NCBI GenBank assembly: GCA_003285105.1
Contig: CP030158.1
Coordinates: forward strand, 977,447-1,041,446
Direction of reading: 5' to 3'
Origin: Roseithermus sacchariphilus
Lineage (GTDB): Bacteria > Bacteroidota > Rhodothermia > Rhodothermales > MEBIC09517
Length of the DNA: 64,000 nt
Shown one piece after another: positions 50,981 to 57,151 of this stretch. Numbering within the stretch: position 1 is the stretch's first letter; every line of letters begins with the position of its first letter. The translations under genes and the position numbers were made by a program. Below the pieces are notes generated by a model. That model saw nothing but the letters and a program-made list of their open reading frames with translations, was not told the DNA's origin and ran no database searches.

Positions 50981-51273
50981 GGCAGGATCCGGTGGAGCGT
51001 CGATGCGGGACGGAACCGCCTATACCCGCCGCCCCCCGCGTGCGATCCCGCGGCCGCCCGGAAGAGACGGTGAAACGCGCCGGCCCCGTCGGATTCGCAC
51101 AACGGGAGCGCCGACACGGGACGACTCGTGCTAAGGGGTGCCATGCTTTTCCTTTTAACCCGCCGGGCCCCCCGGAAGAGGCCGCCTCAGGGCTCTGGAT
51201 CGTCGTCTGGCACCGCGTACAAGTGAACCGTCGCGCATCGGCGCTCCCTACCGAAGCGTATGCCGATTCCCGC

Positions 51274-51440
51274 GCCGGGTTTCCGTGCCGGGTTTCCGTG
51301 CCGGGTTTCCGTGCCGGGTTTCCGTGCCGGGTTTCCGTGCCGGGTTTCCGTGCCGGGTTTCCGTGCCGGGTTTCCGTGCCGGGTTTCCGTGCCGGGTTTC
51401 CGTGCCGGGTTTCCGTGCCGGGTTTCCGTGCCGGGTTTCC
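51274..51440 (+). repeat. 13-bp minisatellite, about 13 perfect copies
   Basis: GCCGGGTTTCCGT is repeated twelve times without a single change, plus an eleven-base partial copy. The perfect conservation implies recent expansion or strong homogenisation. Since 13 is not a multiple of three the array runs open in several frames, which creates long spurious ORFs on both strands. It lies downstream of nrdJ and upstream of queD. Confidence 0.97.
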
Positions 51441-51445
51441 GCCGA

Positions 51446-51489
51446 CACGAAACGAACGCGCCCGGCCCTCACAGCGAGAGCCGGGCGCG
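51446..51489 (-). terminator. Probable nrdJ terminator hairpin
   Basis: CGCGCCCGG (51457-51465) and CCGGGCGCG (51481-51489) pair perfectly and the stem extends inward to about 14 bp with one mismatch and a 5-base loop. On the minus strand it begins 35 bases after the nrdJ stop and is followed by the T-rich TTCGTTTCG. Confidence 0.7.
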
Positions 51490-51523: not shown

Positions 51524-54500
51524 TCAGCCGCACCCGCTGGAGGTGCCGCACTGCGTGCAGACGTAGCACGCGCCGCTGCGGACGGTGATGGCCCCGCAGT
51601 TCGGGCAGGGCGGCGAGTCGGCCTGGTTCTGATACGTCCCCGTGGACGGCTCAGCGGCGGCGACCGGCGCCGGGGCGGCGCGCTCCATCGTCTGCATGAA
51701 CGTCTCCACCGTGCTGCCCACGAGCGCATCCCGCATCGACGGCGCCGTCGGCTCGTCAAAGGAGAGCTGCATCTGCGTCTCGTCCCGGGCGGGGCCGCTG
51801 CGGCGCACCTCTGCCGCAACGGCCTCCTTAGGGTTTACAGCGTCCTCCGCGACCTCCTGCGGCTGCCCGAGGAACTTCAGGCTGAGGTAGCGGAAGATGT
51901 AGTCCATCATCGACTTGGCGATGGGGATCTGCTTGTTGTTCGTGAAGCCGCTCGGCTCGAAGCGCATGTGGCTGAACTTGGTGCACAGATCCTCCAGCGG
52001 CACGCCGTACTGGAGCGCGATGGAGATGCTCGTGGCGAAGGCGTCCATCATGCCGGCCAGCGTCGAGCCCTGCTTGGCCATCGTGATGAAGATCTCGCCC
52101 GGCTGCTTCGTGTCCGGGTAGAGGCCGATGGTCAGGTAGCCCTCATGCCCGGCGATGGAGAACTTGTGCGTGATCGAGGGCCGCTCGTCCGGCAGCCGCT
52201 TGCGCACCGGCTTGTAGACGATCTTCTCCACCTCGCGGACCACCTCTTTCTCCACGATCTGCGGCTCGGCCGAGGCCATGCCGTCGCCGCCGGTCACGCC
52301 CTCCTTCTGCTTCGTGTTGCCGTCCTTCGACGTCGAGAGCGGCTGGCTGCGCTTGGAGTTCTCGCGGTAGATCGCCACGGCCTTGAGGCCGAGCTTCCAC
52401 CCCATCATGTACGCGTCGGCGATGTCCTCCACCGTCGAGTCCTCCGGCATGTTGACCGTCTTGCTGATGGCGCCGGAGATGAACGGCTGGCACGCCGCCA
52501 TCATCTTGATGTGGCCGCTGTGGTGGATCGACCGGGTGCCGTTGAACGGCTTGAAGGCGCAGTCGAAGACCGGCAGGTGCTCCTCCTTCAGGATGGGCGC
52601 GCCCTCGATGGTGTCGTGATGGTCGATGTACTCGACGATCGCCATGATCTGGTCTTCGTCGTACCCCAGACGACGCAGGGCCTCGGGCACGGTGCGGTTG
52701 ACGATCTTGAGCATGCCGTCGCCCTTGCCGGCGAGCAGCTTGTACTTCACCAGCGCGATGTCCGGCTCGATGCCCGTCGTGTCGCAGTCCATCATAAAGG
52801 CGATGGTACCCGTCGGAGCCAGGACCGTGGCCTGGGCGTTGCGGTAGCCGTGGCGCTCGCCCAGGGCGACCATGCGCTCGGCGCTCTGCCGGGCCGCCTC
52901 CTTCAGGTAGGCCGGGCAACTCGGGTGGATGTCCTCGACGGCCGCCCGGTGCATCCGCATGACCTCGAGCATGGACTCGGCATTTTCGGGATAGGCCGGG
53001 AACGGCCCGATCTTCGCGTTGCCGGCGATCTCGGCCGAGCGGGCGTAGGCCTCACAGTGCTCGATGGCCATGATGGCGCCGGCCACGGCCCGGCCCTCGT
53101 CGCTGTCGTAGGGCAGCCCCATCGCCATCAGCAGCGCCCCCAGGTTGGCGAAGCCGAGCCCGAGCGGCCGCAGCAGGTGCGAGTTGTAGGCGATCTGTTT
53201 CGAGGGGTAGCCGGCGTTGTCCACCAGGATCTCCATCGCCGTGATGAAGATGCGCGTGGCCGCCCGGAACCGCTCAACGTCGAACGTGCCGTCCTCCTTC
53301 TGGAACTTGCGCAGGTTGAGCGAGGCCAGGTTGCACGCCGTGTTGTCCGGGTGCATGAACTCCGAACAGTTGTGCACGGCGATGCCGCCGGCGACGAAGT
53401 GATCCGTCACGGGCTCCGTCAGGTCGTAGACCGGCTCTTCCCCGAGCAGTTCGAGCGAGGCTACCCGATCGACCATCCGGTCCTGGTACGTGCTTACGCG
53501 GGCATTCAGCGCTTCGAGGGCCTGCTGTTTTTCACTGCCGGGCAGAAAGCCGATTTCCTGCTCGAACCGCACGCGGCTCGACCGGGTGATCCGCAGGCTG
53601 TGCATCTGCTGCACCGTGTATTCCTTCAGCCCACCCTGTCCGTCCGGCAAGAGTGCCCGGTTCGTCAGGCGGCGGTTGCGGTAGAGCTTGGATTTGATGC
53701 CGAAGCCGAGCAGCAGGAGTTGCACCTGCTCCAGAAGCACTTCACTGGTCGAGTCAAGCCCGACGTACTGGGTCTTTTCCCCGACGTCCACCACGGTCCC
53801 GTCGGCCGTGAAAAGACCCTGCAGCAGGGCTACGACGCTTTCGCGGTCGAGTTGAAGGGCCGCATCGGTCAGACGCTTTTCGGCTGCACCGGCATCGAGA
53901 ACGGCCCAGTGAGCGAGCATCGAGCGCACGGCCTCAGCGTTCGTGGCGACGGCCAGGCTGGTGGGGCGCTCCGTCACGTGCACCGGCCCGCCCCGCCGTT
54001 CGAAGCGGTTCACGACCTGCCGGGCCACCTCGGCCAGAGCCGGCTCGTGTTTGCCCACCGTCAACGTAGACAGAGTGCCCGAGACGCAGCCGTCCCCGAG
54101 CATGAGGCCGACGTAGGCCGCCTCGTCCGGGTCGATGTGCCGTGTGCCGAAGCGCGGCTGCACCAGACGCACGACGTCGTCCTTCGTGAGCTCGCAGGCG
54201 GGGACGTCGCCCCGGTTCTCGGTCCAGACGCGGTGGTCGGCGGTGAGCTTGATCGTGTAGCCGCTCTGCGTGCGCAGCCGGTACACGGGCTTCGTGCCGG
54301 TTTCGATGACCCGCGTGGTGCGGTGCAGCCGGCCGTCCAGACCGACGACGCGCGGCGTCTCACCCACCATGCTGTCGATGCGGCGGAGCCCGTCTTCGGT
54401 GGCCACGAGCGTGTCGCCCGTCACGCACGGGTTGCTCGAGTTGATCGGGCCGAAGGCTTTGACGGTGTTCCAGCGCTGGATCGTGTCCTCGTACTGCATC

Positions 54501-55642
54501 CCCGGGTCGCCACAGACCCAGGTGCCCTCGGCGATCTTGTCCAGGATCGTCCGGGCACGCACTTCCTCGACCGGCTCGCCGGAGAGGACGGCGCGCAGCG
54601 TGAAGTGGTCGTCGTGCTCGGCGGCCCGCATGAACTCATCGGTCACCCGGACGCTCTGGTTGACGTTCTGGAAGGCGACGCTGCCATAGGCCGGGCCGTT
54701 GAAGGAGCCGTCGTAGCCCTGCTCGATCAGCGCCCACGCCTTCTTCTCCTCCTCCATCTTGGCCTCGACGAACTCCATGATGTCCGGGTGCCACACCTTC
54801 AGCGTCTGCATGATGGCCGCCCGGCGCGTCTTGCCGCCGCTCTTGATCGTGCCGCCCGTGGCGTCCTGCACCCGCATGAAACTGACCGGCCCGGAGGGGG
54901 TCCCCCCGCCGGAGAGCTTCTCCTTCGACGAGCGCAGCTTCGACCAGTCCGCCCCCACCCCGGAGCCGAACTTGAACAGCCGGGCACTCTCGGCCATCAG
55001 CTTCCAGATGTCGTCGATCGAGTCGTCGACCGAGATGATGAAGCAGGCCGAAGCCTGCGGGCGCTCGTAGGGGTCGACCTCGACGACCTGCTTCTTCTTG
55101 CGGTCCCACCCGTAGATGGTCTTGCCCCCCGTGTCCCGCACGCCGTACTGATGATGCAGGCCGACGTTGAACCAGACGGGGCTGTTGAAGGCGCCATACT
55201 GGTTGACGCACAGCCAGGTCAGCTCGTCGTAGAACCGCTCGCCGTCGGCTTTCGTGGCAAAGTACTGCTGCTCGATGCCCCAGTCCGCGATCGTGCGCGT
55301 GACGCGGTGGATGAGCTGCTTGAGGGAGCTCTCGCGCCCCCCCTCGGCCGGGTGCTCGCCGGCGCGGGTGACGTCGCCGTAGAAATACTTGCTGGCGACG
55401 ACGTTCGTGGCGAGCTGGCTCCACGAGGTGGGGAACTCGACGTTCTTCTGCTCGAAAATCGCCTCCCCCCGGGGGTTCTTGATTGCCGCGTCGCGGCGCT
55501 CCCATTCGACGGCATCGAAGGGGTGCTGCCCGTCTTTCGAAAACACCCGATCGATGGTCAGGCCTTTCTTCAGGGCTTCGGGATCCGGGAGCGGGGTCGC
55601 CTCCGCATCGGTCGCAAAGAGCGTCTTGTTCGCCTCAGGCAT
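51524..55642 (-). CDS. nrdJ: Adenosylcobalamin-dependent ribonucleotide reductase with intein
   Basis: The 1372-residue precursor starts at 55642 behind GGAGGTATCC. It is a class II ribonucleoside reductase (NrdJ), reducing nucleotides with a B12-derived radical. Recognisable parts are VNQYGAFNSPVWFN, QASACFIISVDDS (a redox Cys), GSGVGADWSKLR, GGKTRRAAIM, NPCSEF split by the intein, LANLASLN-like CNLASLNLRKF, LAPTGTIAFMMDCDTTGIEP and SQPLSTSK-type substrate loops. The C-terminus is a four-Cys zinc ribbon (CPNCG, CTQCG). Removing the 353-residue intein (residues 406-758) leaves about 1019 residues, normal for the family. Promoter and operator elements are probably in the large upstream gap. 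Confidence 0.96.
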   Translation of the reverse strand: MPEANKTLFATDAEATPLPDPEALKKGLTIDRVFSKDGQHPFDAVEWERRDAAIKNPRGEAIFEQKNVEFPTSWSQLATNVVASKYFYGDVTRAGEHPAEGGRESSLKQLIHRVTRTIADWGIEQQYFATKADGERFYDELTWLCVNQYGAFNSPVWFNVGLHHQYGVRDTGGKTIYGWDRKKKQVVEVDPYERPQASACFIISVDDSIDDIWKLMAESARLFKFGSGVGADWSKLRSSKEKLSGGGTPSGPVSFMRVQDATGGTIKSGGKTRRAAIMQTLKVWHPDIMEFVEAKMEEEKKAWALIEQGYDGSFNGPAYGSVAFQNVNQSVRVTDEFMRAAEHDDHFTLRAVLSGEPVEEVRARTILDKIAEGTWVCGDPGMQYEDTIQRWNTVKAFGPINSSNPCVTGDTLVATEDGLRRIDSMVGETPRVVGLDGRLHRTTRVIETGTKPVYRLRTQSGYTIKLTADHRVWTENRGDVPACELTKDDVVRLVQPRFGTRHIDPDEAAYVGLMLGDGCVSGTLSTLTVGKHEPALAEVARQVVNRFERRGGPVHVTERPTSLAVATNAEAVRSMLAHWAVLDAGAAEKRLTDAALQLDRESVVALLQGLFTADGTVVDVGEKTQYVGLDSTSEVLLEQVQLLLLGFGIKSKLYRNRRLTNRALLPDGQGGLKEYTVQQMHSLRITRSSRVRFEQEIGFLPGSEKQQALEALNARVSTYQDRMVDRVASLELLGEEPVYDLTEPVTDHFVAGGIAVHNCSEFMHPDNTACNLASLNLRKFQKEDGTFDVERFRAATRIFITAMEILVDNAGYPSKQIAYNSHLLRPLGLGFANLGALLMAMGLPYDSDEGRAVAGAIMAIEHCEAYARSAEIAGNAKIGPFPAYPENAESMLEVMRMHRAAVEDIHPSCPAYLKEAARQSAERMVALGERHGYRNAQATVLAPTGTIAFMMDCDTTGIEPDIALVKYKLLAGKGDGMLKIVNRTVPEALRRLGYDEDQIMAIVEYIDHHDTIEGAPILKEEHLPVFDCAFKPFNGTRSIHHSGHIKMMAACQPFISGAISKTVNMPEDSTVEDIADAYMMGWKLGLKAVAIYRENSKRSQPLSTSKDGNTKQKEGVTGGDGMASAEPQIVEKEVVREVEKIVYKPVRKRLPDERPSITHKFSIAGHEGYLTIGLYPDTKQPGEIFITMAKQGSTLAGMMDAFATSISIALQYGVPLEDLCTKFSHMRFEPSGFTNNKQIPIAKSMMDYIFRYLSLKFLGQPQEVAEDAVNPKEAVAAEVRRSGPARDETQMQLSFDEPTAPSMRDALVGSTVETFMQTMERAAPAPVAAAEPSTGTYQNQADSPPCPNCGAITVRSGACYVCTQCGTSSGCG
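53369..54427 (-). mobile_element. LAGLIDADG intein in NrdJ
   Basis: A 353-residue in-frame insert starts with Cys (CVTGDTLVATEDG, block A) directly after extein SSNP and ends VHN just before extein CSEF. Splicing blocks are complete: TADH in block B, block F VYDLTEPVTDHFVAGG and block G with penultimate His, terminal Asn and Cys+1. Blocks C (YVGLMLGDGCVSG) and E (LLQGLFTADGTV) are LAGLIDADG homing-endonuclease motifs with both acidic residues intact, so the endonuclease may be active. The insertion point is the thiyl-radical cysteine of the reductase, so the enzyme cannot function until splicing. Confidence 0.96.
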
Positions 55643-56184
55643 GGATACCTCCGCAGAACTTGGTGTGATGGAGTAGGGATGGGTGGGCCGACGGGGTGGC
55701 CGGTGCATCGCGCCCAACCCGGCGCCCCATCCGCGGACTGCACACCCGGGCACGGCGGCGTGCGGCCGAACGACGGCAGGGTCCTGGAAACGATGCGGGC
55801 CGAGGAGGGCGATGCCAGACAAATAACGGTTTATCGCCGGCGGGCAATAAACCGCTATCGGGTTGTCGCGCTACGGTTCCCAATTAACCCCCCCATGGGC
55901 CGTTATGCAAGCACATTTTTTCCACAACCAACCCACGCCCCGAACCGGGCCGAATGCATAACGGATATCGCCATTTCGGGCCTCGGACGCCCCTCAACAC
56001 CCCGTCATCCCCATAAAAATGCCGTTATTGAGCCCGGATGCCCCTCCGCCCCACTCCCGGCCTCAGATTATCCACATTCGGATACCAGCCGGGTGTCAAT
56101 AACGGAGACAATGCCTGGCACAATAACGGCACATCATCGGGGGAAGGCGATGCGATGCCTGCCCCGACGCGCGGTTAGGGCCGC
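55643..56184. other. 542-bp intergenic region upstream of nrdJ with ATAACGG cluster
   Basis: No gene was found. The part from 55820 to 56130 is much lower in G+C than its surroundings. It contains ATAACGG or its complement at 55823, 55900, 55958, 56022, 56099 and 56123, several as perfect inverted pairs (CCGTTATGCA at 55900 with TGCATAACGG at 55955; CCGTTATTGA at 56022 with TCAATAACGG at 56096). There is also a hairpin with arms CGGTTTAT and ATAAACCG (55827-55854), a consensus DnaA box TTATCCACA (56068-56076) and a near-match TTTTCCACA around 55917. Confidence 0.7.
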
Positions 56185-56442
56185 TCAGAAATCTTCGTCG
56201 AAATCGTCGTCGTCCTCGAAGTCGAAATCCTCGTCATCCTCGAAGTCGTCGTCCTCGAAGTCGAAATCGTCATCGTCCTCGAAATCCTCGTCGTCTTCGA
56301 AGTCGTCATCGTCTTCGAAGTCGTCGTCCTCGTCGAAGTCGAAGTCGTCGTCCTCAAAGTCGAAATCGTCGTCGTCCTCGTACGCAAGCGGCATCAGCAC
56401 GTCGAGTTCGGCGTCGGACGTAGCGTAAAGGAGGTCAGTCAT
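56185..56442 (-). CDS. Asp/Glu/Phe low-complexity protein
   Basis: The 85-residue product begins MTDLLYATSDAELDVLMPLA and then consists almost only of Asp, Glu and Phe in repeats of the type FEDDDDF and DFDFEDDDF to the end. It has no signal peptide or known domain. The charge is extremely negative with regularly spaced aromatics, as in disordered polyanions or nucleic-acid mimics. Codons alternate GAC/GAT and GAA/GAG, so the protein repeat is not just a simple DNA repeat. The start at 56442 has a good promoter candidate about 70 bases upstream. I regard it as a real small gene, function unknown. Confidence 0.65.
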   Translation of the reverse strand: MTDLLYATSDAELDVLMPLAYEDDDDFDFEDDDFDFDEDDDFEDDDDFEDDEDFEDDDDFDFEDDDFEDDEDFDFEDDDDFDEDF

Positions 56443-56746
56443 GAGCGTGGCAGGATTGGATGAACGCGCACACCGGGGCGACGTCTGCACCCGGTGCCGA
56501 GGGGGAGGTAATGTACAGCACGGGCGTGCCAGACAAAACCGCCGCTCCCGAATCCACCGCAAAATTATGCCCGGAGGGTGTAAAAAAACAATGTAGCGAA
56601 CCGGCCCCGGCGGCCGTCGTTTACGGCTCGCGGCGGGCGCCGCGGCGGGAACAAGCGCCTCGGACACCGTTTCCTTCCCCCCCACGCGCCGCCTTGCAGG
56701 CCACGCAGCACCCTTCTTTCACGATCTCAGGTACCTCTCTCCTCCC
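56443..56746. other. 304-bp divergent intergenic region
   Basis: No gene was found. The region separates the Asp/Phe protein (minus) from the 134-residue protein (plus) and contains AT-rich patches, including an A7 run near 56583-56589, a GCACG/CGTGC palindrome (56518-56529), and a minus-strand promoter candidate. Confidence 0.5.
56510..56538 (-). promoter_or_regulatory. Promoter-like TTTTG-N18-TACATT for the acidic protein
   Basis: On the minus strand TTTTG (56538-56534) and TACATT (56515-56510) are 18 bases apart, near the Bacteroidota -33/-7 arrangement. The spacer contains the GCACG/CGTGC palindrome. It lies about 68 bases before the start of the 85-residue acidic protein. Confidence 0.4.
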
Positions 56747-57151
56747 ATGCGCGACTTCAACGAACGCAGCGCGTATCCGCACCCCGGCGACTTCAAGGTG
56801 ATGCGCCCGGAATACACGGAAACCGAAGACGGCTACTTCCAGGCCACCATCACGATCACGCCCTTCAAGGTGACCGGCCGCAGCACGTCGAAGCCCGGTG
56901 CCCGGCGGGCGGCGCTCTACGAGGCGGAAAAAACCTACCGCTCCTACCACCCCTCCTATCGGATCCAGAACCCGTACCCGGACACGTTCGTCGACCGCGA
57001 GGGCATGCGCTGGAAGCGCGTCCCGCCGGCACAACGCGCCGAACTGGGAGACTACATCTTCATCGACGAGGACGGGGAGGAGGACTACGCCAACATCGAG
57101 CAGATGCTGATGTGGGACGTCCGCCCCGTGCCGGAGGAGGACGAGGACTGA
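56747..57151 (+). CDS. Hypothetical protein with acidic C-terminus
   Basis: The 134-residue product (MRDFNERSAYPHPGDFKVMRPEY) was not recognised. Residues 20-75 look like a beta-hairpin plus helix (GYFQATITITPFKVTGRSTS, RRAALYEAEKTYRSYHPSYRI), followed by a predicted coil and an acidic tail (DEDGEEDYANIEQ, EEDED). It has no signal peptide or membrane segment. It is divergent from the Asp/Phe protein and convergent with the nuclease gene. The coding quality (steady codon use, clear start) supports a real gene. Confidence 0.65.
   Translation: MRDFNERSAYPHPGDFKVMRPEYTETEDGYFQATITITPFKVTGRSTSKPGARRAALYEAEKTYRSYHPSYRIQNPYPDTFVDREGMRWKRVPPAQRAELGDYIFIDEDGEEDYANIEQMLMWDVRPVPEEDED

Follow-up and report, generated by a model that had tools for sequence, protein, structure and literature searches.

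The window analysed here, a 64-kb stretch of the Roseithermus sacchariphilus chromosome, includes nrdJ (51524–55642, minus strand), whose product is identified by Pfam as an intein-containing class II (B12) ribonucleotide reductase. Directly upstream of this gene, six exact copies of ATAACGG are found in 307 bp (55823–56129), with one further copy in the whole window. The preliminary description of this DNA had drawn attention to this cluster, to the perfect inverted pairs within it and to an island of lower G+C, and all three are confirmed: the array region has a G+C content of 57%, against about 70% for the window, and contains two perfect 10-bp inverted pairs, CCGTTATGCA/TGCATAACGG (55900–55909 and 55955–55964, separated by 45 bp) and CCGTTATTGA/TCAATAACGG (56022–56031 and 56096–56105, separated by 64 bp). 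An Rfam search of the window matched no family, so that the gap is not explained by a known riboswitch. The nrdJ intein is of the LAGLIDADG type, and many relatives have an nrdJ without intein, judging from split matches around it. Beyond the 3′ end of nrdJ, towards a PTPS/queD-like gene, lie short tandem repeats (about 51260–51480), with 7-mers such as GGAAACC repeated as many as 13 times within 310 bp.

Two small reading frames border the array on its other side. A very acidic, D/E/F-rich ORF of 85 aa (56185–56442, minus strand; start region MTDLLYATSDAELDVLMPLAYE) has no Pfam or NCBIfam match, and similar acidic ORFs adjoin the arrays of several relatives. It is followed by the gene of a 134-aa protein (56747–57151, plus strand), which occurs in 20 of 20 Rhodothermales tested and in none of 7 sister-order genomes and has no sequence match in Pfam, NCBIfam or the PDB. 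Residues 12–72 of this protein are predicted to adopt an alpha-beta-beta-beta-alpha fold resembling a dsRBD (Foldseek best E 0.0085; VIA Z at most 6.4). Such folds usually bind dsRNA without sequence specificity, and the protein is thus a weak candidate for the ATAACGG binder. No Rep-type initiator was recognized by Pfam among the neighbouring proteins scanned.

The array has a defined internal order. On its nrdJ side, a repeat search delineated a near-palindrome (block 1; 16 bp; 55823–55858) made of two ATAACGG-type sites, an exact one on the plus strand (55823–55829) and ATAGCGG, with one mismatch, on the minus strand (55852–55858); its arms, ATAACGGTTTATCGCC and GGCAATAAACCGCTAT, are kept in our alignment A2 as AATAACGGTCTATCGCC..GGCCATAAACCGT. 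Two matches to the DnaA-box consensus TTWTCCACA come next, both on the plus strand: box 1, TTTTCCACA (55918–55926), which is conserved in relatives, and box 2, TTATCCACA (56068–56076), 150 bp further along. DnaA binds this consensus, oligomerises and opens oriC. These are the only two TTWTCCACA of the window, among 22 in the genome, and they fall within 159 bp, where 0.08 would be expected in the entire window. Each is bracketed by a converging pair of ATAACGG sites. Site 2 (55900–55906, minus strand), of a GC-subtype TTGCATAACGG, precedes box 1 by 18 bp, an offset that recurs in relatives, and converges with site 3 (55958–55964, plus strand), of the same subtype. Around box 2, site 4 (56022–56028, minus strand), of a CA-subtype CAATAACGG, converges with site 5 (56099–56105, plus strand), also of the CA-subtype; site 6 (56123–56129, plus strand; CA-subtype) repeats site 5 in the same orientation, 24 bp further on.

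A candidate DNA-unwinding element extends from 55880 to 55917, from AATTAA/AATAAA via CCGTTATGCAAG to the T-run that precedes DnaA box 1. In relatives, the least stable DNA is the stretch separating block 1 from DnaA box 1; the mean over 15 genomes is lowest at about −40 to +20 from the TTATGCAAG anchor, with a weak contrast in R. sacchariphilus, whose 70% G+C genome has no strongly AT-rich element here. The basal unwinding system of bacterial origins combines DnaA boxes and DnaA-trios (PMC8287927, PMC6669920), and DnaA-box-guided opening is the presumed core function of the present array as well. However, no above-chance trinucleotide repeat run is found within 16 nt of its boxes: runs of 0 and 1 were counted here, where a DnaA-trio would comprise at least three such motifs, and the runs beside the boxes of relatives are distributed much as in shuffled sequences. 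The lack of trios would be compatible with another unwinding architecture. GATC is absent from 55583–56722, hence there is no SeqA-type cluster, and a pattern scan found no parS.

The position of the array on the chromosome is that of a replication origin. GC skew, sampled chromosome-wide in 20-kb stretches, is mostly negative before about 1.03 Mb, mostly positive up to about 3.4 Mb, and mostly negative again thereafter. With the array at 1.033 Mb, a further half of the 4.808-Mb chromosome (about 2.4 Mb) leads to about 3.44 Mb. In a contiguous 264 kb around the window, the cumulative G−C minimum falls at window position 57064, about 1 kb from the array; the dnaA gene is 110 kb from the array, and the skew minimum is not at dnaA. 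Between dnaA and the array, a 20-kb stretch (L088; G000:C1:937447–957446) has 58.6% G+C in a genome of about 69% and is possibly a genomic island. The strand asymmetry switches at the array in the Salinibacter-like genome G012 too (3,551,823 bp), in which the array, at 3.547 Mb and without nrdJ, is found at the record end, where the skew changes sign. In the coarse sampling of relatives, G002 and G012 agree with this placement, and G010, G024 and G040 do so only to within a few hundred kb. The skew minimum, like the DnaA boxes at 55918 and 56068 and the near-palindrome at 55823–55858, was missing from the preliminary description.

The same layout recurs across the Rhodothermales. That earlier account had called for an alignment of nrdJ upstream regions from related genomes, and among the 36 compared from this order, 35 contain ATAACGG, against 3.2 expected; the top 9-mers found de novo are GCATAACGG (24 genomes), CAATAACGG (24) and TTATCCACA (21). 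A common order and orientation is repeated across families, with the palindromic block, CCGTTATGCAAG, DnaA box 1 and often an ATAACGG, followed by CCGTTATTG, DnaA box 2 at a distance of about 150 bp from box 1, and two successive CAATAACGG. Across families, DnaA box 1 starts 18 bp after the start of CCGTTAT. As read from the site lists, the subtype goes with the place: 12 of 12 genomes have a GC-subtype site ahead of box 1, and 13 of 13 have a CA-subtype site ahead of box 2. A search for the last two sites as CAATAACGG-N15..17-MATAACGG in 114 genomes of the order gave a single match in each of 31 genomes, with a spacing of 23 bp in 30 of them and of 24 bp only in R. sacchariphilus, and with an unconserved spacer sequence. 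Such a constant distance across a changing sequence suggests proteins that occupy the same face of the helix.

A search of 195 genomes of the class found the module of CCGTTAT and DnaA box in the Rhodothermales alone, and viral contigs contained no copy of the CCGTTATGCAAR-box module. Around 30 DnaA-box clusters from 14 sister-order genomes, a single ATAACGG occurs in 31.5 kb, compared with 128 in 31.2 kb around 29 Rhodothermales loci. Sister-order genomes show a recurrent layout of their own, with four DnaA boxes, two of them 11 bp apart and the others about 150 and 250 bp off, and without ATAACGG (L353, L360, L361, L364, L366, L370, L373); this is probably an origin or a dnaA promoter. Within the Rhodothermales, the array is eroded or was not found at the expected place in family f15 and in some genomes of f4 and f13, and the motif may therefore be dispensable in places. 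In members of f3 and f13, ATAACAG substitutes for some sites, from which the tolerated motif is probably ATAACRG.

Although the array is directly upstream of nrdJ in most families, nrdJ is a frequent rather than an obligatory neighbour. The Salinibacter-like genomes G012 and G023 lack a close homologue of nrdJ and keep the array beside the gene of the 134-aa protein. In G040 the array adjoins a uvrA-like gene, assigned by eye, 766 kb from the 134-aa gene that borders it elsewhere, and in G183 the nrdJ side is occupied by a gene that by eye is glycerol-dehydrogenase-like. In genome G107 the array is present twice. Contig C5 carries a copy beside nrdJ, and the copy on contig C1 belongs to a mobile element, with a phage-type integrase gene (PF00589) on one side and an ORF on the other; a gene for an Mrr-type endonuclease (PF04471) follows farther on. 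Over 71 bp the two arrays share 91.5% identity. The mobile element (L314 5670–11652; G107:C1:569669–575654) also encodes a 663-aa protein with family-A-polymerase-like motifs, as judged by eye. It is possibly an oriC-carrying mobile element, and the presence of the array on an integrase-bearing element is no more than suggestive of autonomous replication.

The location at the skew switch, the conserved architecture and the independence from nrdJ together lead us to conclude that the array is a bacterial oriC with a lineage-specific second motif, an identity that is close to settled computationally. The possibility raised initially, that the cluster was part of a replication element, is strongly supported by the skew switch, the DnaA boxes and the conservation; DNA looping, also considered at the outset, is compatible with an orisome. 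We put at about 85% the probability of the overall reading, in which the 307-bp cluster is the chromosomal oriC core and ATAACGG would be bound by a protein whose target is not the canonical DnaA box. Like a canonical bacterial oriC, the region is intergenic, carries TTWTCCACA boxes and lies at a skew switch, and origins that are not next to dnaA occur in other species (PMC10225481). It departs from the canonical case in having only two consensus DnaA boxes and no DnaA-trio, and in being dominated by a second, more numerous motif.

Other origins also combine DnaA boxes with additional sites. Iteron origins, as in plasmids and with RctB on Vibrio chromosome 2, have repeated initiator sites in regular helical phase beside DnaA boxes. 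The present array shares this phased arrangement but has one close direct pair only, mixed orientations and no adjacent rep gene, its flanks being nrdJ, the acidic ORF and the dsRBD-like protein. It also resembles Caulobacter Cori, with CtrA, and the M. tuberculosis oriC, with MtrA, in that regulator motifs are interleaved with DnaA boxes; the MtrA boxes of M. tuberculosis are direct-repeat pairs between DnaA boxes (PMC4285127). The motifs differ, however, being TTAA-N7-TTAA and GTCACAGCG in those origins as opposed to ATAACGG here, where the direct repeats have a 23-bp spacing and the rest of the genome shows no enrichment of the motif. TTAA-N7-TTAA is absent from the window, and the MtrA, Spo0A, AdpA and HP1021 consensuses (PMC4285127), compared by inspection only, are unlike ATAACGG.

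Could the cluster have arisen without an origin function? Chance or low-complexity clustering might be expected of a region that is AT-richer than the genome, yet at most three copies of ATAACGG appeared in any of 20,000 dinucleotide-preserving shuffles of the 311-bp region, and the position and spacing are conserved across the order; we regard this explanation as negligible. A multi-site operator of nrdJ, for example for a dedicated regulator of ribonucleotide reductase, was another of the initial proposals. Coupling the expression of this enzyme to initiation would make biological sense, and the array is indeed upstream of nrdJ in most families. This proposal is not supported by the finding of arrays that lack nrdJ (G012, G023), lie at a distance (G040) or are duplicated on a mobile element (G107), and it leaves unexplained both the skew switch and the interleaved DnaA boxes. 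Two NrdR-like patterns gave 0 matches, as the initial reading that this is not an NrdR box pattern had implied. An nrdJ operator is thus very improbable.

The identity of the protein that reads ATAACGG within oriC is a separate question. The main rival to a distinct binder is that ATAACGG constitutes a second class of DnaA site, such as a lineage-specific weak or ATP-DnaA box, which we consider unlikely though worth taking seriously. The ATAACGG sites are placed among the DnaA boxes at constant distances from them, the complement CCGTTAT has a TTAT core in common with TTATCCACA, and degenerate DnaA boxes are known (PMC10225481). However, the conserved CGG and the CCACA of a DnaA box fall on opposite sides of TTAT, and the ATAACGG flank is variable (GCA, TGA, TTG). 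Moreover, canonical TTWTCCACA boxes are kept beside the sites, the two kinds of position never swap between species in alignment A2, and the near-absence of ATAACGG around sister-order DnaA-box clusters also speaks against a DnaA site. A global regulator or nucleoid protein, either IHF-like or a response regulator of the CtrA/MtrA kind, with oriC as part of a wider regulon, is a rather improbable reading. It has precedents in CtrA, Spo0A, AdpA and MtrA, all of which act at other origins (PMC4285127), and proteins of the HU/IHF family are encoded in the genome. The genome-wide count of ATAACGG, a check suggested along with the initial observation, is 93 in 4,807,988 bp against 107 for the reversed control pattern, which indicates no overall enrichment, yet six copies cluster in the 307 bp of the array. 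Furthermore, in a survey of 60 genomes limited to paired sites, no gene recurs beside close pairs outside oriC, and thus no context typical of an autoregulated binder gene was seen.

Based on the above data, we propose that ATAACGG is recognized by a sequence-specific origin-binding protein acting otherwise than by canonical DnaA-box recognition. The 23-bp direct repeats and the fixed offsets to the DnaA boxes would place this protein on a fixed face of the helix. It could either aid DnaA assembly, by bending or looping the origin, or compete with DnaA and thereby time initiation; sites that bracket the DnaA boxes would suit cooperative bending or looping for DnaA loading as well as an occlusion that delays it, in the manner of CtrA, MtrA, Spo0A and AdpA elsewhere (PMC4285127). 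Whether the putative protein is specific to the Rhodothermales and dedicated to oriC, controlling origin recognition or initiation together with DnaA on a fixed helical framework, is a tentative proposal to which we give slightly less than even odds.

Mentions of ATAACGG in the literature are incidental only, and no description of a Rhodothermales or Salinibacter oriC was found in the literature outside most subscription journals and DoriC. The present analysis locates oriC in an order for which genetic tools are scarce and provides, in the array, a marker of oriC that is usable in draft Rhodothermales genomes. With an exact bait sequence and non-ori controls now defined, direct fishing for the putative binding factor is feasible. 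A mobile element carrying the origin module of its host, as in G107, is a notable case by itself. Lastly, a second origin motif that outnumbers the DnaA boxes has been maintained with helical phasing across the families of this order, and its understood counterparts, CtrA, MtrA and Spo0A, have shown how lineages time their replication.
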